From a virus, in the IMG/VR virus record IMGVR_UViG_3300020207_000020, positions 1 to 64,000 of that record: a stretch of DNA of 64,000 nucleotides. One strand, written 5' to 3'. This document shows positions 11,901 to 25,693 of the stretch, in pieces. The position numbers and the translations under genes are program-made. Below the pieces are notes generated by a model. The model saw only the letters and a program-made list of their open reading frames with translations, made no database searches and was not told the DNA's origin. The number at the start of each line of letters is the position of its first letter. Position 1 is the stretch's first letter.

Positions 11901-14900
11901 TTATCTGCCAAGAACAGATAGACTTTATATTAGTAAAAATGGAACGATGAAAATAGTAGAGGGTGTTTCTGACATACCCTCTAGACCCCCCGTATTGAAA
12001 GAGGGGATGCAAATCGCTGAGATTAGGATTCCTCCATATCCATCTATAGCTAGAAATCTTGCTGTTAAGTTTGGAGTAGTAGAAAAATCTGTTGGTTTCT
12101 TCTTGAAGGGACAAACAAGAAGATATACAATGAAGGATATTGGTGCCATCGAAAAGAGAATTGGTAGGCTGGAATATTACCTAGCACTGTCTCTTATGGA
12201 AATGGCTGCAAAAGATAAGGTTATCCTAGACGCAAATAATAACGATAGATTTAAAAATGGTATATATGTAAACCCATTTGACAGTGATCTACTAAGTGAT
12301 ATCGCTGATCCAACTTACAATGCTGCTTACAACTCTATGAAAAAAGAGATGGCGCCAAACTTTGATGAGTCGGAAATATCCTTGATGTTGAATGCCAACT
12401 ATGGAAATAGTGGTTGGTCTTATATGGGACAACATATCACACGACCATATGAAATAGCTGATCTTTTAGAAAACAGATTTGCCACAAAAACTAGAAATTG
12501 TGTTGGTGAACTATTGTTTAACTACACTGGTAAAATGGAGTTGTTCCCCAGATCGGATAACTGGGCAGAAACATCAAACCTACAACCAATGAACTTGACT
12601 GCTAGTAACCAAGCTGGTGCTCAGGCGGTTGCAGCTAGTGTCAATGCATCACAAAACATTGTTGGTTCTAGTACTACTTTTGAAATGGGTGCTGTTGTAA
12701 ATACTGGTACTCCTTGTAACCCCTCACAACAATTCGTGCCAGGGGCAAGTAACCAGACAACCAACACAGTTGACATCACTCAAGGGAATGACGGTTCATT
12801 CCAAGTCTCAGCTGATGCTCCCATAACTGGTGGATTCCCGCAAACAATGGTTCCTGTTGGTGGTGGAGGTATGTGGGAACAGGTTGGTGAGGGACAGATA
12901 GATGTTTCTATCTCTGGTGAGGTTAATGTAAATGGTAGTTATGACCAAATTGTAACTACACAAGACATTCAAGCTTCAACTACTAACTATTTGTTGAATG
13001 CTTCTGCTACATCTGCCGGTTCTCTTGAATTTAATATTGGTAATGTTGTTAGAGATGTAAGTCTACTTCCTTACATGAGAAACAAAAAAATTGGTGTTCG
13101 TGTTACAGCAATGAAACCAAACACCAGATTGTATGTTTACTTTGATAATGATAATGTTACTGAGTTTTGTGCTCCCGCATATGTAGAAGATTATATTGAC
13201 ACTACAGACGAAACAGAATCGCTAAATAGTGGATTTGATAGTCTTACTTCGGTCTGGGCATCTGGGTCTCAGGGAGATGGTTCTGTATTTGAACAGTGTA
13301 TATATCCACCAACTATCAGAACAGATATTATTACGAATGAAGGCGGAGATGCTGCCTTCATACTTGATTTGCCTGGCAATAGATTCCCAGTGGGAACCAG
13401 AAGAATCTGGGTAGTAGACGATCCTCAAAACAGAGATAACTTTATTACCACTCAAGCAGAAAATCAATACTCCGCTTTTGGTTTGCATCAAGCAACTCAA
13501 GAAGTTAGTTTGACTGCTGAAATTTATACAGTAGAGTATGGCACTACAGCCGTAGATGGTGGAACTTCTACTGTAGGTACTGTTGTTACTGATGTGAAAA
13601 ACACCAATGCAGAAATAAATGTATCTATTGACGACCTAGAAGCTAACATCGATGTTACTCAACCGCAATTTATTTTCCATCCACCTAGGCAGTTTGGTGA
13701 TCCAATAGCTCAATCTTTCACTGTTGAGAATTCTCCTACGCCAGTTTTCTTGTCTCAGGTAAAAGTATTCTTTAGAGAAAGACCAGGCGAAAAAGATGGA
13801 GTAACTTTGCCAGAAACTCTTCTGTTTTCTGACGTATCGGCTACAGAACTCAAAATTGGCAGATCATATAAAATTGTAGAATCTGGAAACACCGATTGGG
13901 CTGATGTTGGAGCATCTAGTAGTGATGTGGGTACAATATTTACCGCAACTCAGGCTGGTACTGGTACTGGTGTTGTTCAGCCCACCATTGGCGGTATTAC
14001 AATGGAAATAAGAAAGTGTCTGAACGGATATCCGACCAAAGAAATTTTAGGTACATGTACTTTGTCGCATCAGGCAGTAAAAACTACACCAGATATTTCT
14101 GGTGGTAATGCAACCAATTTTGATTTTAGGGCGCAATACGCTACTACATTCTATTTTGGAGATCAAACTTACGCCGTGGGAGTCACTGGTCAAAACAGTA
14201 ACATCAATGGTAGACCAGTTGTATTAGACCCAACAGAAGAGTATGCATTTGTACTGTTGCCACAAAACAACAACCCGAATTACAATATTTGGGTATCTAA
14301 GTTAGGCGAAAATAAGATTGGTACTCAATCGGATAGAGTTACCGCTGATGAAACATACAGTGGTATGTTGTTTACTTCTTCTAACAACAGAACGTGGACA
14401 CCACACCAAGGTGAAGACATCAAGTTTGTTATGTATGCTAATACTTTCCCCACTGGTACTGGTACGGTAGAAGTTGTCAACGAACACGCAGAATTTGTGA
14501 TCGGTGAAGAATTCACTGGAGGAAAACCAGACCCATCTAGGCCTGGAACTTGGTATAGTTTCAACCACACTATCAATGAAGGTGGTGTCAATTACGCAGT
14601 CGGAGATACCATAACTCTTGATACATCTAGAAACAGATGTCCAAAGGGTATCATATTTGAGGTAACCGAGATTGACAGTGGTCTGGGTACTGGTGGTGGT
14701 GTTGTTACTGCTGTAAAACCGATACAGTATCACGATGGATCAAAAGACTCATTTGAGGCGAAACCCTATACATTTGGTTCTACCGATGGATCAAACAATA
14801 CTTTCATACAATCCACAACTAGTGGAGGCGGAGCTGGATTTGAAATAAATCTTTCAATCAAATCAATGAGAATGAAAAAGATTGATAATCAAAAAAATAG

Positions 14901-17352: not shown

Positions 17353-18327
17353 ATGGCTGGCCCAATAACACTAAAAGCAGGTTCATATCCAGCTGCCGCA
17401 GATGGTTTGCAAGGATTTCGTGAGCTTACTAATACCGAAATTGCAAACCAAATTGCTGGTGTTATTACATCAAAGTTTGCAACTGATACTGATGGAACTG
17501 GTACTGCCGAACTCGTAGTAACTACTGGAAGTCTTTCTGCTGGAGTTACTAACATTGGTTCTTTCTCGGATAGAGTGAGACAGGAATCGGTTGGAGCTCA
17601 TCCAGCAAGTGGCGCTATTAGCACTACTACAAACACTTTCGGTCAGGTGAATACTGTTTTATCAGAAAATCCTACCAGACCTTTGAGATGGAATGGGTCT
17701 GGAGTAGAAGAAAGTAGTGATGGAGAAATTGACACAGAAATTTTAGATATTGTTATTAATGCGATGGTATCAGAAGATGCTAATACTGTAGGTCAGTATA
17801 AAATTGACACATCTTCTCCGGCTGGAGGAACGTGGACTGCTAGATATACTATCACTGATACTCAGACAGATGGCACAACTGTCTCATATTATTTGTGGCA
17901 AAAAACTGGTGTTACCACTAATGCTGGTACTGATAGTAATCTCCTGTTAAAATCTGATGACTTTGGTAATGTCACAGAAATGTCAGTTGCTGATGTAGAA
18001 ACGCTGGATAATAGTTTTAGAAACAGAATTATCTCTTCTGGTGTAGGAACATATCTTGTTCAGACTGGTTCGCCCACAGACCCAGGCACATGGGTTCAAA
18101 TGGGTGGAACAATGACAGACAACCTCAAAGATATTACAAATGTAAATTATGCGGGTGGTTATACTGGTACATATACTGGTTACTATGACAGATTCTTCTC
18201 TGGATATTTAAACGGGTCTTATGCTGGTAGTTATTCTGGTACATATACTGGTTACTATGCTGGTGCTACGATTCAGTCTTCATCTTCTACACAAGAAACA
18301 AAACAACTTTTCTTGAGAACCGCTTAA
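17353..18327 (+). CDS. Fibre-like protein with Gly-Tyr-rich tip
   Basis: 324 residues. The N-terminal half is a Thr/Ser-rich beta region beginning AGPITLKAGSYPAAADGL. The end is unusual: a run of Y-G-T-Y units (YTGTYTGYY, SGYLNGSYAGSYSG, YTGTYTGYYAG, roughly residues 266-305) followed by SSSSTQETKQLFLRTA. Such aromatic-glycine ends are common on adhesin tips of tail fibres. The ATG has an AAGGAG site (17340-17345). A hairpin terminator follows the stop. Confidence 0.7.
   Translation: MAGPITLKAGSYPAAADGLQGFRELTNTEIANQIAGVITSKFATDTDGTGTAELVVTTGSLSAGVTNIGSFSDRVRQESVGAHPASGAISTTTNTFGQVNTVLSENPTRPLRWNGSGVEESSDGEIDTEILDIVINAMVSEDANTVGQYKIDTSSPAGGTWTARYTITDTQTDGTTVSYYLWQKTGVTTNAGTDSNLLLKSDDFGNVTEMSVADVETLDNSFRNRIISSGVGTYLVQTGSPTDPGTWVQMGGTMTDNLKDITNVNYAGGYTGTYTGYYDRFFSGYLNGSYAGSYSGTYTGYYAGATIQSSSSTQETKQLFLRTA
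18166..18259 (+). repeat. 22-bp exact direct repeat encoding the Gly-Tyr tip
   Basis: The 22 bases at 18166-18187 recur exactly at 18238-18259 and encode GTYTGYY in each copy. The repeat could allow recombination-driven length change of the fibre tip. Confidence 0.9.
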
Positions 18328-18395: not shown

Positions 18396-18833
18396 ATGTC
18401 AGACCTCCCCAAGTACAAAAATCCTAGATGGGTCGATAAAGAAACTCGCCGAGTATGGTGTGAAATTCTTGTCGGAGAAAGATATCATCAATGTAATATT
18501 AATGCTGGCAACCCAGAAGAGGGTCTTGTCAATAAAGATTTTGATAATATCATGGAAGAGTTTGGTGAAGAAGTTCTTGATGAGAATACCAAACTTTATG
18601 AAGAAAATTTAGATGAAGATCGAAAGAAGGCTGAAGAAGCTAGAGAAGTTCACATCAATCGGATCAAACAAGAAACTCTCTTTGAGATGAAACTTGAAGC
18701 ATTTGAGATTGATCTAATCAAAGAATCTCCCAACAAAGAATTAAAAAAACTTCTTAGAAAAGCTAAAACCGTTGTTGAGGTTCAGGCTTACGCAACACTT
18801 TTATTACAAGAAGCTATCTCTAATTCTGAATGA
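18396..18833 (+). CDS. Unknown 145-residue charged protein
   Basis: Start chosen at 18396, which has a GAGG site (18387-18390) at good spacing; an in-frame ATG at 18384 lacks one. The N-terminus has NPRWVDKETRRVWCEI, the middle is highly acidic and helical (about residues 45-90), and the end has a Leu-rich helix (KELKKLLRKAKTVVEVQ). It overlaps the next gene by ATGA. Position right after fibre genes would suit a fibre-assembly helper, but nothing specific supports that. Confidence 0.65.
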   Translation: MSDLPKYKNPRWVDKETRRVWCEILVGERYHQCNINAGNPEEGLVNKDFDNIMEEFGEEVLDENTKLYEENLDEDRKKAEEAREVHINRIKQETLFEMKLEAFEIDLIKESPNKELKKLLRKAKTVVEVQAYATLLLQEAISNSE

Positions 18834-19549
18834 ACGGATATCTATACGTTGCAACGGTGAGAAAAGAATATTATCTCGCCGCCAAAGAGTCAGCTCTTTC
18901 GCTCCTCGACTTTAATCCAGAAGCAAGAATAACTTTATTCGCACTAGAAGAATGGATTGAAGAAGAAGACCACGAAATCTTTGATCATATTATAACTGAC
19001 ATCCCCAATCATGTTAGAACAAAGTTGTGGGCTTTGTCAAGAACTCCATATGATATCACCATGTATATTGATTGTGATACTTACATTCAACATGAAGATA
19101 TCAAAGATGTCTTTGGTTTTATAGGCAACAACGATATTATCTTTACCAAAAATCGTCCATACAATGCTAAAATAACAAAACTAAATGATACGGAAGAAAT
19201 GGTTTATCACTGTGGTGTTTTTGTTTATAAAAAGAACGCAAAAACAGTTGACCTCATGGATGATTGGTATGAGTATTATTGCGAACAAATAAAACCATCT
19301 TATGATCCTAGTCCATACACGCACATGGTGAAACCTTGGGATACCTTTACTATGTGGTATCTACTAAATAAAACAGACCACAAAGATAAAATAAAAGTTG
19401 GTGAGTTCCCAGAACCAGATGCCAGATGGAACTTTTGTATGGGTCAAAGACCAGAAGAACTTGTGGGACAAGATGTTGTTATCACTCATTATACATTGGG
19501 AAGAGTAACTTTAAATGCAAACCATAACCATCAATCAAGAATTAAATAA
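18830..19549 (+). CDS. Glycosyltransferase-like protein (GT-A type)
   Basis: 239 residues. The N-terminus (YLYVATVRKEYYLAAKESALSLL) and the central MYIDCDTYI, with a DxD metal/nucleotide-sugar motif, are typical of GT-A glycosyltransferases. Later RWNFCMGQRP and VITHYTLGR fit the acceptor half. It shares the aromatic-(I/L)D-(C/L)-D pattern with the four minus-strand transferases nearby but is more distant. It overlaps the following 2OG-like gene by 35 bases. Acceptor unknown; virion protein, phage DNA or host surface glycan are all possible. Confidence 0.65.
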   Translation: MNGYLYVATVRKEYYLAAKESALSLLDFNPEARITLFALEEWIEEEDHEIFDHIITDIPNHVRTKLWALSRTPYDITMYIDCDTYIQHEDIKDVFGFIGNNDIIFTKNRPYNAKITKLNDTEEMVYHCGVFVYKKNAKTVDLMDDWYEYYCEQIKPSYDPSPYTHMVKPWDTFTMWYLLNKTDHKDKIKVGEFPEPDARWNFCMGQRPEELVGQDVVITHYTLGRVTLNANHNHQSRIK

Positions 19550-20120
19550 GATTCTTGAAGACTACATTGTTTGGTTCAACAAAAAAAACTTTGATCTATC
19601 TTTTGATGAGAGACGGATTGGAGACAATGATATGGAATATTATTGCTCTCAAGAATATCTTAATGAAGTTATGTCAAAGGGAAACAAACATAAAGGCCCG
19701 CCAGAGTTTGCTAAGGTATGTGACTTTCACCTAACTGCAAAGGTTCCAAAAGAAGCCAGAGAAAAATCTTTAGACTTCAGCAAAAATCTATCAGCATATC
19801 TTGGTGCAAAGTTTACCGCAGTCCACGTTTATTATCCCGTAGGTGGATTTATGTCTTGGCACAATAACTGGGATTGTCCAGGCTATAACATACTTCTGTC
19901 TCATAGTGACGGGGGTGGATTTTTTAAACACCTAGAAGATGGTAAAATAAAAACGATCAATGACCAGCCTGGTTGGTCTGCAAAGGTTGGATATTATGGT
20001 GGTAAAGAGGAAGAACCCTATTGGCACTGTGCTGGATCAAATAGTCCAAGACAAACAATAGGGTTTGTTATTCCCGACAAAACCATGTGGGAAATGATGG
20101 TAGAGGACATCGAGGGTTAA
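19515..20120 (+). CDS. 2OG-Fe(II) oxygenase-like protein (phage HxN variant)
   Basis: 201 residues with the double-stranded beta-helix pattern of prolyl-hydroxylase-like enzymes: VYYPVGGFMSWHNNWD, then PGYNILLSHSDGGGFF, and a C-terminal WHCAGSNSPRQTIGFVI containing the second His and the Arg that normally holds 2-oxoglutarate. The first metal site reads H-N-N where most family members have H-x-D, so activity is uncertain. Similar HxN proteins are, from memory, common in marine T4-like phages. It is convergent with the minus-strand methyltransferase gene, and the two stops overlap. Confidence 0.6.
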   Translation: MQTITINQELNKILEDYIVWFNKKNFDLSFDERRIGDNDMEYYCSQEYLNEVMSKGNKHKGPPEFAKVCDFHLTAKVPKEAREKSLDFSKNLSAYLGAKFTAVHVYYPVGGFMSWHNNWDCPGYNILLSHSDGGGFFKHLEDGKIKTINDQPGWSAKVGYYGGKEEEPYWHCAGSNSPRQTIGFVIPDKTMWEMMVEDIEG

Positions 20121-20131
20121 AAGAAACCCTC
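20112..20131. terminator. Small inverted repeat across the convergent stop codons
   Basis: GAGGGTT at 20112-20118 pairs with AACCCTC at 20125-20131 around a 6-base loop and spans the overlapping stops of the 19515 and 20117 genes. No T run follows on either strand, so termination would be weak. Confidence 0.4.
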
Positions 20132-20800
20132 TCTCTGCCCGATGATCATGTAACGATCATATTCTTTCTTTCCTTCCCAAGAGAAGTATGTCTGTTGTTT
20201 TGTTCCTTCGTATCCAGTTTCGGATATTCCCATCTGTTCTTTCAGCTCTTCAATTGATCCGACACAGTTGATACCGTACATTTCTTCTACCACATTTGAA
20301 TTCTGTACTGCATAAACCGCTTGTGCATTTTTTCCATTGAGTTCTTGCAGAGGATACATCTGTTCAGTATGAATACAAATTACCACATCAACTTCAATCT
20401 TGTTTAAGTTTTCAAATTCAAATGGTACATCAAGATTCCAGTGACGGATGTTGACAAATTTTTCTTGGGCGTAGTGTTTATGAAAAATTTTTGACAGTTC
20501 GATTGACTCTTCATCCAAGTCAACCATGTGAATCTGTGATACGTCTAGATTTTCACAGAGAAGAGGAACCATAGGAATCCCCAACCAAGAGTTTAGAATT
20601 AGAATTCTTAGGTTGCCAGTTTTTGTGTAATACTCCTCAAGATATTTTTTTAGTTCTTCTACACACCAGACACTAGCTTCCATATTATTTTCCGACAAAG
20701 ATTGTCTGAAGTCTGCCAGTTTATGTGGCATTTTCTTTTCGATAATATGTAGAGCTTCGCCCCAGTTTTTATAGTTGTTGATAAAATTAGAATTTAACAT
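20117..20800 (-). CDS. Class I methyltransferase-like protein
   Basis: 227 residues from the ATG at 20800; an upstream TTG at 20824 would lengthen it but lacks a ribosome binding site. The central part reads like a Rossmann methyltransferase: LRILILNSWLGIP in place of the usual glycine-rich loop, then IHMVDLDEESIELSK (acidic residue for SAM ribose), then RHWNLDVPFEF and DVVICIHTEQMYPL. The loop is poor in glycine, so it may be divergent or inactive. Last gene of the minus-strand glycosyltransferase cluster; its start overlaps the preceding gene by 14 bases. Confidence 0.55.
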   Translation of the reverse strand: MLNSNFINNYKNWGEALHIIEKKMPHKLADFRQSLSENNMEASVWCVEELKKYLEEYYTKTGNLRILILNSWLGIPMVPLLCENLDVSQIHMVDLDEESIELSKIFHKHYAQEKFVNIRHWNLDVPFEFENLNKIEVDVVICIHTEQMYPLQELNGKNAQAVYAVQNSNVVEEMYGINCVGSIEELKEQMGISETGYEGTKQQTYFSWEGKKEYDRYMIIGQREGFF

Positions 20801-21461
20801 CTTCACTTTTTCCCATTGAGTCAAATATACAAATATATGGTAGTTCTCTGTATGTATGTCTTTCTATGTCATGCGGAAAAACATATCCCTGATTAAAACT
20901 GTACACCCATCCTAGTGGAAACATTTTTGTTTTTACCACCCTTCTGTTGTAGAAGAAGTTGTCAAGGCCTCGATAGTACCACAGTATTTGTTTCTTATAC
21001 TTGTTAAAATATTCGATCAGTTCTCTAGTATTTAGACTGTCATTCCAGCGCAACACAGATGAGTTCAAGTCAGTGTACTTGTGTGGAATGTGTCTAGTGT
21101 CCCTGTACTGTGTTTCTAGATCGTGCCACCATGTTTTTACAAAACACAGACAATCTTCTGGATCATAGTTTACAATATCATCGATGTTCTTTTGGATGAT
21201 TACGTCCAAGTCAAAGAACATCTTTTCGCCTTTTTGTGTAACAATAGTATCATCAAACAGATACATCTTATTCCACCACTTTTCTAGTTTGTTTCCGCCT
21301 GGAAATGACAATACTTTTATAGCGGGGTCTAGGTCTTTTGAATCTTCTGTTAGACAATAGAAGTCAAAGTCGCAACTTATATGTTGCTTACAACTCTCAT
21401 AGAGTTGATTTACATGAGAAGCAATATATTTGTTGCCCCATTTAACAGTGTAAATATTCAT
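20787..21461 (-). CDS. Glycosyltransferase paralogue 1 of the minus-strand cluster
   Basis: 224 residues beginning with the cluster's shared N-terminus (NIYTVKWGNKYIASHVNQLY) and carrying FFDLDVIIQKNID, whose DLD is the likely DxD motif for metal and nucleotide sugar. A later SSVLRWND and a C-terminal GWVYSFNQGYVFP are also shared with its neighbours. The cytoplasmic enzyme would move a sugar to an unknown acceptor. It overlaps both neighbours by a few bases, implying one polycistronic transcript. Confidence 0.7.
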   Translation of the reverse strand: MNIYTVKWGNKYIASHVNQLYESCKQHISCDFDFYCLTEDSKDLDPAIKVLSFPGGNKLEKWWNKMYLFDDTIVTQKGEKMFFDLDVIIQKNIDDIVNYDPEDCLCFVKTWWHDLETQYRDTRHIPHKYTDLNSSVLRWNDSLNTRELIEYFNKYKKQILWYYRGLDNFFYNRRVVKTKMFPLGWVYSFNQGYVFPHDIERHTYRELPYICIFDSMGKSEDVKF

Positions 21462-22276
21462 TCACCAGTCCAATGTTTTAGTAGTTGAGGGTCTGCGAGT
21501 TCATCTTGTTTTGTGTGACCTCTACTTTTGTCTTCAAAAGGCAAAAGATCAACATTGAACACACATATGATACAGTTTGGTCTGTAGATTCCAACGTTCA
21601 AATCATCTTCATCCCATGACCTACCACGGTTATATGAGTATGCCATCCAAGAAGGGAAGTGATCCCACAAGTCTTCGCCGTACCTACCCCATTTCCAAGA
21701 GTGATAGTTGTCGGTTCCATCGGTGTATGTGAACCAAATTTTTTCTTGATTCTCTAATACATCATTCCAGATACACTCACACTGATCATCTGACCACACT
21801 TGACAAGAACCATTCGTATATGCACCGTGGGCCAATTTAAATTGCCGTGTGGTCATCGGTCTTGGGTCTTGCCACCAAGACTTCATCTTAGTGGGTCTTT
21901 CCATGTTGTATGTTAGGACAGGTGTAAGATCACCTTGGATAATAACATCAAGATCAAAAAAAACAAAGCGCCCAGTAGGTTTATCGTCAGCAAAATTATG
22001 AGTATTGAAAACAAAAGTTTTAGGACGATCCCAGCAACGTGCCATACCATACTTAAAATCTTCAGTCCCAAACCAATACTTAGGATGAATATTAGGAATA
22101 TCAGGAAATGGTATAACATTGATGTCAGAGTCAAATCCATCTGAATTGTCCGTGTAACAATAAAAATAAAATTCAAATTCTTCTGGCGTGTTTCTTTTCG
22201 CCATTTCTTTTAATCTGTTGACGAAGTGCGGGCCATACTTTGTTCCCCACTTGCAACATACATAATTTACTCTCAC
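21458..22276 (-). CDS. Glycosyltransferase paralogue 2 of the minus-strand cluster
   Basis: 272 residues from a GTG that overlaps the upstream stop as GTGA, a coupling used throughout this phage. Shared features: VCCKWGTKYGPHFVNRL at the N-terminus, CYTDNSDGFD, VFFDLDVIIQGDLT with the DxD motif, TNGSCQVWSDD and SWMAYSYNRGRSWDED. The closest relative in the window is the N-terminal domain of the 907-residue protein. Confidence 0.7.
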   Translation of the reverse strand: MRVNYVCCKWGTKYGPHFVNRLKEMAKRNTPEEFEFYFYCYTDNSDGFDSDINVIPFPDIPNIHPKYWFGTEDFKYGMARCWDRPKTFVFNTHNFADDKPTGRFVFFDLDVIIQGDLTPVLTYNMERPTKMKSWWQDPRPMTTRQFKLAHGAYTNGSCQVWSDDQCECIWNDVLENQEKIWFTYTDGTDNYHSWKWGRYGEDLWDHFPSWMAYSYNRGRSWDEDDLNVGIYRPNCIICVFNVDLLPFEDKSRGHTKQDELADPQLLKHWTGE

Positions 22277-24996
22277 TTACACCCTCCGCATTTTTTATTA
22301 CAAATAGTCAGGGGGTTTCTTTTTAAACTCTGACTAACATTTTCAAAGTCGTTACTATAAATTATCTCGCCAACAGTAAAATTCTTTAAACTATTATACT
22401 GCGAATTGTATGTGTAGTCAAGTGGATGATAGGGTAATAATCTACTTTCTAATACATCTCTTGCTATATAGGCACACGGATATGCGCCACTGTCAGCACT
22501 AACATAAAAATATCCACTCTTTCTTGCATCGCACCAGACTGCCTCGGACTTCTTCGCCTTTGGTTTTGGTCTACGAACCTCGTCCTTTTGTTTGAACATC
22601 TTTAACGTTTCCAAGTTTACGGGGATGTCACTGGCGATAGTTTCTTGTACTATGGGAATGTTTTCCGTCTGTTGCGGATGATCGATATATTCTATTTTAT
22701 CAACCCAAGTTGGTTTGATAAACGTTTGATCATATGTTTGAACCGTAACGGTAATCCCATTGTCTTGGAAGTATTTACAGATTTCCTCAAAGTGTTCTGA
22801 TTTGGTAGGGTCTGACAATTCACACATAAGCGTAACCCAATTGACTCTATACCTATCGAAAATCTTTCTGATAGATGAGATTGTATGTTCGTTTTCTGTT
22901 AAGAATAAATCATTGTACGGGTCATTGGTATCGTTTCTTTTGCTACTTAATTGAACCAAGGCTCCTTCTGGGGCTCCATCTTCATATAGTCCTCGATACA
23001 TATCAGAGTACTGTTCCCCATGCATTTGGAAATACTTAACTAGAGTATCGTCTGATATGTTATCTTGTTTCAAGATTCCCAAAAGTTCATCCTTTGGCAT
23101 GATGTTATACAGTCTTTCAAATACTGCTTCATAATCTTGTTTGTAGAACAACTCTTTTAGATTGTCTATGTAGTATCTGCGGTATAAACTCTGGATGTCA
23201 CCGTCATCTGCATCCCAGAATAATCTTTGCATCCCATACATTCTAACATTTTTCATGAACTCTTTTTTTATTTTTGGCAGTTCATTTTTATGCCACAGTC
23301 TACGATACAGTGCAAAACACTGTAGCCAGCTGATGTTCCAGAAGTATCTCACCGGCCCATATTCTTTTGCTTCTTCATAAACAATTTTGTGTTGTCTGGA
23401 TATATACCTTTCTTTATAGAAGTCATAGATTCCATCAACGTTTTTATTCCAATACAGTGATTGATCTCCGTTCTGCAATATCTTGTCTTCTGGAAAATCA
23501 GCCAAAAACTTTTTGTGCATAGAAATCATATCACCAGTTTCATATATCTCTTTAATTATTTTTCTGTGATGAGATTCTATTCTTCTAATAAATGTGAAGT
23601 CTGAAATTTCTTTTTCTAACTCTGGGAACTTTTCCTTGATATTTGGAATGGTGTCCTCTTTCAGAGTTTCTAACTCTGGGAAGTACTCTATCATTTGTTT
23701 TGATAAAGATGTCAGATCATTCTCATCCAACATATGTCTGAGTCTGCTTACGATCTTTTGATCCATGTAGTTTTTTTCTAGTGTGTCATCCGTCATAGAA
23801 TCAAACTGAGACCAGTTCTTAATGCTATCAAACTTGTCGTTGTACTTTTCCCAATCCTCTTTTATTTTTGGTAAGTCCTTGTAGAACTTATCAATAAGAA
23901 CATCAAAGACAACCTTGTGCATCTTGTAAACATATCTTTCCTTATAGAAATCATAGATTCCATTTACATCTTTGTTCCAGTATAAAGATTCATCTCCGTC
24001 CAACAAAAATGGATCGGTGGGAAAGTCTGCCAAGAATTTCTTGTGCATTGAAATCAAGTCTCCATCAAGTTCTTTGATGGTTTCTAGGTGTCTGGATTCA
24101 ATCTGTTTTACAAAAGGATCGTAAGAGTTTGCATCATTTATCAGAGTATCAATTCTTTCTGTGTGTTTATTTTTAGTAAAGAAATTTTCTGGAAACTTTG
24201 GCATCCAAAGTTTTTCAAACTCAGTTTTCCCATGCCAGTGTATAAGAATGTTATAGTCTTTGACTTCATGTGGTTTTATGAATTGACCTTTGCTTGGTAC
24301 AACTGGGTTATCAAATATACAAAACTTTGCCGTTTCTCTATACAGATGTTCTGTCACATTATCTGGATATTGTTGTCCTCTATTGTAAGAGTATACCCAA
24401 TCAGACGGAAGGAAAGACCAATAATTATCACCAACCACATCGTGTTCACGATATGGATAATAGTTATCGGTTCCCTTCCAAAAGGTTTTAAATACGGTGT
24501 TCTTGTGTTTTAGAACATCATTGTAAATTTTTTCTCCCTCATCATTGCACCACAACATCACGCTAGAATTGTACAGACTACCTCTAATGTCAGTGAAACG
24601 TCTGTCTTTTAGTACTCTGGGGTCTTCCCAGTGAGAATACAACATGTGAGGAGTAGATGAAAGATCAAAGATTTCATCGATGTTGTTTTGAATTACAACA
24701 TCCAAATCTAAATAACAAAAAGGCCCCTTGGTTTTTAACCATCGGTGAGAGTTTAATACTAAGAATTTCGACCTATCCCAACACCAGTTCTCTTTGCCAA
24801 ACCAATAGTCTGGATGAAGTGGGTCAACTCTGGGAATTGATCTAATGGTTATATTTTTGTCTATTCCATCTGGGTCATCGGTATAACAAATAAACTTGTG
24901 GCGTTTCGTATAGTTCTGTTGAACCATCTTGCGTAAATTGTTTACATATTCTGCCGAGTATTTGTTACCCCATTTCATGCAGAGAAAGTGCATCAT
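22273..24996 (-). CDS. Fusion protein: glycosyltransferase plus radical-SAM/SPASM-like C-terminus
   Basis: 907 residues. Residues 1-270 are the cluster glycosyltransferase (CMKWGNKYSAEYV, CYLDLDVVIQNNID, WVYSYNRGQQYP). Residues about 297-365 and 470-540 are two copies of an unknown module (SMHKKFLADFP, SLYWNK, GIYDFYKERY). From about 690 a stretch (NWVTLMCELSDP, then EEICKYFQDNGITVTVQTYD) resembles the barrel of radical SAM enzymes. Residues about 817-907 resemble a SPASM domain (SADSGAYPCAYIA, ending CNKKCGGCK). The CxxxCxxC that binds the radical-SAM cluster is absent, so the barrel part looks inactive or repurposed. Confidence 0.65.
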   Translation of the reverse strand: MMHFLCMKWGNKYSAEYVNNLRKMVQQNYTKRHKFICYTDDPDGIDKNITIRSIPRVDPLHPDYWFGKENWCWDRSKFLVLNSHRWLKTKGPFCYLDLDVVIQNNIDEIFDLSSTPHMLYSHWEDPRVLKDRRFTDIRGSLYNSSVMLWCNDEGEKIYNDVLKHKNTVFKTFWKGTDNYYPYREHDVVGDNYWSFLPSDWVYSYNRGQQYPDNVTEHLYRETAKFCIFDNPVVPSKGQFIKPHEVKDYNILIHWHGKTEFEKLWMPKFPENFFTKNKHTERIDTLINDANSYDPFVKQIESRHLETIKELDGDLISMHKKFLADFPTDPFLLDGDESLYWNKDVNGIYDFYKERYVYKMHKVVFDVLIDKFYKDLPKIKEDWEKYNDKFDSIKNWSQFDSMTDDTLEKNYMDQKIVSRLRHMLDENDLTSLSKQMIEYFPELETLKEDTIPNIKEKFPELEKEISDFTFIRRIESHHRKIIKEIYETGDMISMHKKFLADFPEDKILQNGDQSLYWNKNVDGIYDFYKERYISRQHKIVYEEAKEYGPVRYFWNISWLQCFALYRRLWHKNELPKIKKEFMKNVRMYGMQRLFWDADDGDIQSLYRRYYIDNLKELFYKQDYEAVFERLYNIMPKDELLGILKQDNISDDTLVKYFQMHGEQYSDMYRGLYEDGAPEGALVQLSSKRNDTNDPYNDLFLTENEHTISSIRKIFDRYRVNWVTLMCELSDPTKSEHFEEICKYFQDNGITVTVQTYDQTFIKPTWVDKIEYIDHPQQTENIPIVQETIASDIPVNLETLKMFKQKDEVRRPKPKAKKSEAVWCDARKSGYFYVSADSGAYPCAYIARDVLESRLLPYHPLDYTYNSQYNSLKNFTVGEIIYSNDFENVSQSLKRNPLTICNKKCGGCK

Positions 24997-25693
24997 AATA
25001 TTTTTTTCTCAATTCTTCTTTTGGTTCGTTACCGTTTAACAAAACTATTGGATAGTCTGGTTTTATTTGATACCCTCTTGGAGATACGTCCGTGTCTAAA
25101 TCTACGCCTCCCGTCAACGAATAGATTAATCCTTTTGGAAATACATTGTCAAACATATTTTCATGATATAAAAATCTATCATCACCACAATATTTAGTCA
25201 TGAAATATTCATCATTTTTTTCAAAATGATCGTAAATGTATCTTGCATCATTCCCATTCCAAACCATTACGCTGGAATTATAAAGACCTTTCCATTTTTG
25301 CATCCACGGATCAGTTGATAGTCCATTTCCAAGGTATGGCATCTCTCGTTGGTATCTTCTATTCTTGGTTTCATGAGTATCTTTATTTTTCCAATAGCAA
25401 TAACATATTGTCGGTGTTGAACAGTGATTAAACAACCTATCTAAACTACCCTGTATTATAACATCTAAGTCTAGATAGAGGCAATCCCCAACCCAATCAT
25501 TCTTGAAAATTTTTATTTTTTCCCAACATCCATCGGTATCAGAATCTATTGGTATAATTTCTATGTTGGGATTTAATCCTGCTGGATCGTCTGTGATACA
25601 GACATGTCTGTAAATATTTGAATTATCATAAATACAATTGACATCGTTGGAGTTATATTTGTCTCCAAACTTCAATGTTATCACGGATTTCAT
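24965..25693 (-). CDS. Glycosyltransferase paralogue 3 of the minus-strand cluster
   Basis: 242 residues, the first gene of the minus-strand operon. It has the shared N-terminus in diverged form (VITLKFGDKYNSNDV), CITDDPAGLNPNIE, LYLDLDVIIQGSLD (DxD), YNSSVMVWNG and a C-terminal GLIYSLTGG. It overlaps the 907-residue gene by 32 bases. No TATAAATA box reads into it on the minus strand, in contrast to the neighbouring fibre genes, so its expression class may differ. Confidence 0.7.
   Translation of the reverse strand: MKSVITLKFGDKYNSNDVNCIYDNSNIYRHVCITDDPAGLNPNIEIIPIDSDTDGCWEKIKIFKNDWVGDCLYLDLDVIIQGSLDRLFNHCSTPTICYCYWKNKDTHETKNRRYQREMPYLGNGLSTDPWMQKWKGLYNSSVMVWNGNDARYIYDHFEKNDEYFMTKYCGDDRFLYHENMFDNVFPKGLIYSLTGGVDLDTDVSPRGYQIKPDYPIVLLNGNEPKEELRKKYYDALSLHEMG

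Follow-up and report, generated by a model that had tools for sequence, protein, structure and literature searches.

A 907-codon open reading frame (ORF) at positions 22273-24996, minus strand, of the viral DNA analysed here (the window: 64,000 nucleotides, positions 1 to 64,000 of IMG/VR record IMGVR_UViG_3300020207_000020) encodes a protein in which a probable glycosyltransferase is followed by a helical middle, the first half of a barrel related to that of radical S-adenosylmethionine (radical-SAM) enzymes, and a twitch domain. Homology and modelling establish the descent of the C-terminal part from a radical-SAM/SPASM enzyme, and on the same grounds it is close to certain that residues from about 673 to 907 constitute a degenerate radical-SAM/twitch unit. 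This unit has lost the CxxxCxxC motif that binds the SAM cluster, the glycines of the GxxGEP type and most of the second half of the barrel. The ORF belongs to a family conserved among uncultivated marine phages of T4-like type. The proposal that the unit has been exapted to position the acceptor of the glycosyltransferase to which it is joined has, in our estimate, about an even chance of being right.

Homology of the C-terminal part to radical-SAM and SPASM proteins

Examined alone, the 907-amino acid protein matches neither a SPASM nor a Radical_SAM family, and a single-sequence search of the Protein Data Bank (PDB) returns no matches. Among its relatives, Pfam SPASM (PF13186) is matched by 6 of the 12 members of alignment A2 at E values up to 5 (best 0.0015) and by 5 of the 8 members of alignment A4, and the relative L108 exceeds the curated cut-off of this family (22.7 against 21.5 bits). 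Pfam Radical_SAM is matched by one of the 12 A2 members (E 0.93), the A4 profile finds only chance-like matches among PDB sequences (best E 0.096), and first comparisons by hhalign with two types of phage radical-SAM protein, those of L185 and L191, gave weak scores of 25.6 and 33.0.

A clear match was obtained when a C-terminal profile (A5) was searched by hmmsearch against the ORFs of 333 loci. Outside its own family it picks out L268, a phage radical-SAM/SPASM protein that is intact and has both parts colinear; the E value is 1.2e-7 over the whole sequence, and the two stretches taken separately give 0.18 and 0.0015. Further intact radical-SAM proteins are matched as well (L255 at E 6.5e-4, L275 at 0.0025, L267 at 0.0048), but these matches were judged no stronger than those to an unrelated cassette protein of the 149-amino acid type (L023 at 0.0022, L039 at 0.0094), and only L268 is therefore counted. 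The intact family to which it belongs comprises 51 IMG/VR loci, or 35 once near copies are removed. Compared with this family by hhalign, the C-terminal profile scores 73.0 (E 6.3e-10 for a single comparison, probability 96.6), while the maximum over 100 column shuffles is 25.3 and the reversed family scores 14.7. Each half also matches singly: the half barrel (residues 672-771) scores 37.5 and the SPASM part (residues 800-907) 69.2, against maxima over 100 column shuffles of 20.0 and 23.3, respectively.

An AlphaFold model of residues 653-907 (48 sequences) has a mean predicted local distance difference test score (pLDDT) of 70 and a predicted template modelling score of 0.66, with ten-residue pLDDT means of 83-97 over residues 673-772. 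When the model is compared with the PDB by Foldseek, the best matches are SuiB chains, the top E value (8.5e-4) being the only one below 0.001. VIA-align places radical-SAM enzymes in all 33 top entries (Z 13.0 to 7.9, the next entry scoring 5.5), among them SuiB (Z 13.0, root-mean-square deviation 3.2, 149 aligned), PqqE (Z 12.8) and BtrN (Z 12.5, root-mean-square deviation 3.0, 154 aligned); the count includes AbmM, which we take to be a radical-SAM enzyme although its title does not say so. In a library of viral structures the sole match below 0.001 is a phage radical-SAM maturase (E 1.8e-4), and the next ten matches are likewise named as radical-SAM or iron-sulfur proteins. The resemblance to radical-SAM and SPASM folds, which a preliminary description of this DNA had read from the letters of the sequence, is thus borne out both by a fold search and by alignment scores that exceed chance.

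Losses and retained residues

The preliminary description had picked out the motifs CELSDP, ICKYFQDNGITVTVQT, YPCAYIA and CNKKCGGC, which are all present (residues 725-730, 739-754, 839-845 and 899-906), and had likened them to the second half of a radical-SAM barrel followed by a SPASM domain. The assignment to the second half has to be reversed, since the alignment and the model both identify the retained strands as the first half: the modelled strands at residues 678-681, 720-723, 749-754 and 767-770 correspond to barrel strands 1 to 3 or 4. The half barrel as delimited by hhalign, AlphaFold and structure comparison covers residues 673-775 (22672-22980, minus strand), and the four strands modelled between residues 678 and 770 fall short of a partial (beta/alpha)6 barrel.

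The same description stated that CxxxCxxC is missing and that the unit lacks its cluster-binding cysteines. For the SAM cluster this is accurate, because none of 87 distinct complete C-termini has CxxxCxxC at the radical-SAM site and none has it anywhere outside the final residues. For the SPASM/twitch part it is not, because a literal CxxxCxxC stands there at the extreme C-terminus, and five cysteines of this part are kept in all 48 aligned sequences.

Comparison with the intact L268-type family, which is colinear over the start of the barrel and the SPASM part, shows what has replaced the catalytic site. All 35 intact relatives carry their own CxxxCxxC within their first 60 residues. In the present family the corresponding position is taken by a loop (residues 682-698; 22903-22953, minus strand) with a conserved N-D-T...F pattern, in which N688 and F698 occur in 48 of 48 sequences and D689 and T690 in 47. 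The SAM-contact motif of the GGEP type is also gone: where 30 of the 35 intact relatives have CGN[FYW]G[ED]P, the 907-amino acid protein has CELSDP (residues 725-730; 22807-22824, minus strand), of which P730 is present in 48/48, while C725 (27/48) and, further on, C740 (30/48) are not general. The intact relatives have a longer barrel, as is seen in the distance from the proline of this motif to the first SPASM cysteine, which is 146-169 residues in 35/35 of them and 70-92 residues in 48/48 of the present family.

In the twitch/SPASM domain (residues 819-906; 22279-22542, minus strand), C822, C841, C899, C903 and C906 are invariant in all 48 sequences, together with H857 and D860. PMC6231123 describes the twitch domain by the first four cysteines of CX9-15GX4C...CX2C, set in a hairpin that is followed by a helix, and the cysteines of the phage family fit this description. 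Both cysteines of CX9-15GX4C are found in 48/48 sequences, the exact pattern in 33, and the CX2C that completes the four-cysteine set is provided by the C-terminal CxxxCGxC (48/48), the helix before it being poorly modelled. The full SPASM pattern of seven cysteines for two clusters (CX2CX5CX3C and a later cysteine) is absent from the 907-amino acid protein, which has just five cysteines from residue 822 on, the last of them at 906 of 907. Given the five invariant cysteines, the single auxiliary cluster envisaged in the preliminary description may well be present. It is plausible for a twitch cluster to exist where the SAM cluster is missing, because BtrN in which the three SAM-cluster cysteines have been replaced still carries its auxiliary [4Fe-4S] cluster, according to PMC9012708. 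The ratio of nonsynonymous to synonymous substitution rates (dN/dS) is 0.03 to 0.07 by region and low in both parts of the protein, which suggests that function is kept, within the limits set by few usable pairs (2 to 11 of 15) and saturated dS.

A two-gene sister form and the order of events

The two components also exist as overlapping genes in a sister clade whose cassette is otherwise the same. Divided targets were found at seven loci (L432, L433, L435, L437, L438, L441 and L446) in a scan that used the neighbouring 272-amino acid glycosyltransferase as query; two further divided loci, L431 and L434, are truncated where their contigs end. The clade comprises three sequence types (L432 with L435, L438 and L431; L433 with L441 and L437; and L446). 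In it the glycosyltransferase is an ORF of its own of about 260 amino acids with DLD intact, and it is followed by an overlapping ORF of about 505-515 amino acids. The product of the latter aligns with the intact radical-SAM family over the whole barrel (score 115.8 over 195 columns, 60 shuffles giving at most 22.2), has the twitch part and lacks CxxxCxxC at the SAM site. Its N-terminus resembles glycosyltransferases (hhalign 36.9 against a maximum of 21.4 in 60 shuffles, over 42 columns only), and no DxD is seen in this stretch.

A tree of C-terminal parts was built from 12 of the 35 intact rows, which served as outgroup, 3 of the 4 split rows and 19 of the 48 fused rows. In it the pseudo-enzymes form one clade (support 100/100), within which the split form (99/92) stands beside the fused form (97/93); the branch of L446 is long. 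The simplest history starts with a single loss of the SAM cluster, after which two adjacent genes fused and the second half of the barrel disappeared, because the sister clade has two overlapping genes and a pseudo-radical-SAM protein with a full barrel. The reverse order, fission of a gene already fused, is less simple because the split form retains the full barrel. A tree of the glycosyltransferase parts does not resolve the order of the short, 812-amino acid and long forms described below; two of its rows, L056 and L031, are truncated at contig boundaries and have incorrect length labels.

Distribution of the family

The family is common in IMG/VR, where a search with the full protein as query yields 62 loci, in 43 of which a single uncut ORF covers the query from residue 1 to 906 or 907. 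Later IMG/VR scans retained the best 80 of 81, 94, 113 and 234 confirmed relatives. The scan with 234 relatives is the one that used the 272-amino acid neighbour as query; in the others the query was the whole protein or its C-terminal part, so that relatives without this part may be missed by them. The lengths of 64 complete distinct ORFs, measured from stop to stop, fall into separate groups: 19 in the 460-489 bins, 11 in the 730s, two in the 810s, 17 in the 830-849 bins and 15 in the 910s. At L020 (191-2937) the target is found as two overlapping frames that break near residue 698, which may be natural or a frameshift of assembly.

Among the 50,697 phage records of INPHARED none has a place that covers 80% of the 907-amino acid query; eight records match the protein, every match lying inside residues 1-254, and this record set contains no match for the 272-amino acid neighbour or for the split-clade protein. 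One scan of genome contigs with the A4 profile found no cellular relatives (16 stretches, none confirmed).

Glycosyltransferase domain, helical middle and duplicated module

Residues 1-275 (24172-24996, minus strand) are probably a glycosyltransferase, perhaps with a GT-A-like fold, to judge from their sequence. They match the phage family phrog_1962 (E 5.3e-4 for the 907-amino acid protein), as do 14 of 16 aligned cassette members at E values up to 0.01, and the DxD motif D97-L98-D99 is invariant in all 16 members of this alignment (A7).

The helical middle (residues 276-672; 22981-24171, minus strand), delimited by the alignments of relatives and by modelled helices of mixed model confidence, differs in length among relatives and is missing from the short form (L108, L195). 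The duplicated, unrecognised module noted in the preliminary description is real. In self-comparison its copies, residues 295-365 (23902-24114, minus strand) and 469-541 (23374-23592, minus strand), are identical in 46 of 73 aligned columns, with a local score of 262 where 500 residue shuffles reach at most 72. The duplication is lineage-specific: in the alignment of relatives, forms of about 910 amino acids have both copies and forms of 833-838 amino acids are without copy 1.

The cassette and its genomic setting

The virus record from which the window is taken has a length of 76 kb. It carries tail and baseplate genes of T4-like type, with baseplate wedge and tail-fibre assembly among the families matched, and a terminase whose ten best matches are cyanomyophages at 49-51% identity. 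Upstream of the target gene, and overlapping its start by 32 bases, lies a glycosyltransferase of 242 amino acids (24965-25693, minus strand; phrog_1962, E 1.1e-15). Downstream follow the 272-amino acid glycosyltransferase paralogue (21458-22276, minus strand), which overlaps the target by four bases and is 80-100% identical across the best 80 of its 234 relatives, a further paralogue of 224 amino acids (20787-21461, minus strand; phrog_1962, E 2.4e-9) and a methyltransferase-like protein (20117-20824, minus strand; Pfam Spermine_synth at E 0.007, under the cut-off). On the plus strand are a gene without Pfam or PHROG match (19515-20120), whose product we take by eye to have a pattern like that of 2-oxoglutarate oxygenases, and a GT8-like protein (18830-19549; Pfam E 0.021, under the cut-off). 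A structural-like protein on the same strand (17353-18327), a fixed neighbour of the cassette and a candidate acceptor, carries six matches to a Y-x-G-x-Y repeat in its C-terminal region; the repeat tail is longer in L086.

This arrangement is constant in long-form records with room for the gene in question, in counts that are not independent because near-identical contigs are included. The 242-, 272- and 224-amino acid glycosyltransferases are present in 66/66, 70/70 and 58/58 such records, the methyltransferase-like, oxygenase-like and GT8-like proteins in 48/48, 38/38 and 34/34, a 149-amino acid gene in 31/31 and the Y-x-G-x-Y protein in 24/24. Next to the short form the three glycosyltransferases are found in 18/18, 21/21 and 15/15 records, the records being too short for most of the other genes.

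Relation to known systems

The intact L268-type proteins, 34 of 35 of which have CxxxC near the end, are encoded by ORFs of 288-342 amino acids, thus too small to include a fused glycosyltransferase. BtrN and SkfB (twitch) and SuiB and PqqE (SPASM) share with the phage protein the fold (Z 8.3-13.0), the cysteine pair of the hairpin and the CX2C near the end; the phage protein differs from them in that it is without the SAM-cluster motif, has lost much of the barrel and is joined to a glycosyltransferase. A radical-SAM-like protein called pseudo is already represented, by the name of its model, in NCBIfam TIGR04150 (pseudo_rSAM_GG). That family belongs to a Bacteroidales peptide system with an associated glycosyltransferase, and there the two are separate proteins. 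TIGR04150 is matched by none of the three phage records searched and is absent among the families listed for eight A4 members.

The genomic setting has counterparts in pelagimyophages and cyanomyophages, whose host-recognition cluster holds glycosyltransferases and radical-SAM cassettes amid tail genes; the available part of PMC7029224 mentions neither a fusion nor a degenerate radical-SAM protein, and the word "spasm" occurs nowhere in it. The accessible text of PMC5332604, which reports 12 radical-SAM genes in a marine genome of T4-like type, is likewise silent about either. Searches of the literature on pseudo- or degenerate radical-SAM proteins and on fusions of radical-SAM proteins with glycosyltransferases found no like case. 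The layout is therefore new in the sets searched (50,697 phage records, Pfam and the literature), as the preliminary description had supposed, while pseudo-radical-SAM proteins as such are known from the name of TIGR04150.

Proposed role and alternatives

If the unit positions an acceptor, the mechanism may be pictured as follows. The pseudo-radical-SAM part would be unable to cleave SAM, the twitch part may still fold around a single iron-sulfur cluster and serve in structure or recognition, and together they would bind an acceptor and present it to the glycosyltransferase domain. The acceptor would be a phage protein encoded at the same locus. A component of the tail or baseplate is the likeliest candidate, for example the Y-x-G-x-Y repeat protein, and the sugar could then be extended or capped by the glycosyltransferases and the methyltransferase-like protein encoded nearby. 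A role in holding a protein substrate fits the pair of genes in the split clade and the fixed setting among tail genes.

Several observations weigh against this proposal or its parts. The glycosyltransferase assignment of residues 1-275 receives no family match from Pfam, and the profile of these residues reaches only E 0.13 against PDB sequences; a full-length AlphaFold model (15 sequences) is poor (mean pLDDT 53, the twitch part mostly about 30) and its glycosyltransferase part lies mostly at pLDDT 22-40, too low to assign this fold, and the helical middle likewise receives no assignment from it. In the model of residues 653-907 the twitch part has low to middling ten-residue means (41-82), and several of the radical-SAM matches from VIA-align have large root-mean-square deviations, up to 11.2. 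The 907-amino acid protein itself has serine for the glycine of CX9-15GX4C. The split-clade protein of L446 (3222-4766) has lost its last twitch cysteines as well, and the cluster is therefore not needed everywhere. Finally, the glycosyltransferases of such pelagimyophages are argued in PMC7029224 to be likely modifiers of the host O-chain that act against co-infection.

This last argument leads to an unlikely alternative, in which the glycosylated target is the host surface polysaccharide (O-chain) instead of a virion protein and the pseudo-radical-SAM part merely holds the glycosyltransferases of the cassette together. The occurrence of four genes of the glycosyltransferase family in tandem at the locus agrees with such an assembly. 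The fixed content of the cassette, with the same structural-like gene adjoining it in all 24 long-form records with room, speaks against it, as does the presence among the best fold matches of SuiB, PqqE and anSME, which act on peptides or proteins; the SuiB structure is named with its precursor peptide.

It is improbable that the twitch cluster serves as a sensor of redox state or of iron or oxygen that switches the glycosyltransferase on and off. Such a function would account for five cluster cysteines that are invariant in 48/48 sequences despite the loss of the catalytic site, but nothing seen in the cassette points to control by redox state, and in L446 the last cysteines are missing. That the protein is still a radical-SAM enzyme by way of an unusual cluster site, for instance the C-terminal CxxxCxxC, is very improbable. 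The third cysteine of this motif does look gained, because CxxxC occurs within the last 70 residues of 34/35 intact relatives and CxxxCxxC there in 0/35, whereas CxxxCGxC is general in the present family; the motif lies, however, at the twitch position instead of following strand 1, both the glycines of the SAM-contact motif and the second half of the barrel have been lost, and the Pfam Radical_SAM model matches one of 12 members, at E 0.93. Least probable of all is a decaying C-terminal remnant without function, since the loss of catalytic residues and of part of the barrel is set against low dN/dS in both parts, the invariance of the cysteines, N688, F698, H857 and D860, and the retention of the C-terminal part, fused or split, in all newly listed uncut cassettes inspected from the scan with the 272-amino acid glycosyltransferase.

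Other radical-SAM proteins in these phages

Records with the target gene also contain other radical-SAM matches, in 7 of 15 records of a first set and 5 of 10 of a second, the records without a match being shorter ones (fragments). The five longest records (G001-G005) have 7 to 9 such matches each, and two of ten shorter records have one each, which means that at least some of these genomes also encode intact members of the superfamily.

Some of these proteins have unusual layouts of their own. In a cluster of proteins at L186 (G001, 136000-150000), found also in G002-G005, the SPASM-like part is N-terminal to the barrel. At L191 (1366-2172 and 2147-2416) and L255 (382-1161 and 1136-1405) two phages have a radical-SAM protein and its twitch-like part in overlapping frames with an identical 26-base overlap, which may be a conserved split or a frameshift site. 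The phage radical-SAM/SPASM protein at L185 (1468-3198) has an additional C-terminal part, which by eye looks like a short-chain dehydrogenase. In G018, the record of L435, a 511-amino acid frame outside the cassette shows weak Radical_SAM matches (14082-14480) and is possibly another degenerate radical-SAM protein.

Implications

A dead enzyme has seemingly been reused as an accessory part, since its chemical centre is lost while the cysteines of one cluster are kept. The complete account, in which a phage radical-SAM enzyme was inactivated once, was kept, at first as a separate protein, as a possibly iron-sulfur-bearing partner for acceptor recognition, was later fused and halved, and today guides the transfer of sugar to tail proteins of the virion, is put forward tentatively, as a possibility somewhat short of even. 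In these phages an evolutionary series can be read that starts with an intact radical-SAM/SPASM enzyme, passes through a full-barrel pseudo-enzyme next to a glycosyltransferase and ends with the half-barrel fusion, and it shows how a radical enzyme can become a non-catalytic part of another enzyme. With it, the role of SPASM/twitch clusters in the absence of radical chemistry becomes testable in a natural protein. The constant place of the fusion in a conserved cassette of these T4-like marine phages points to a specific and testable system of phage-tail glycosylation.

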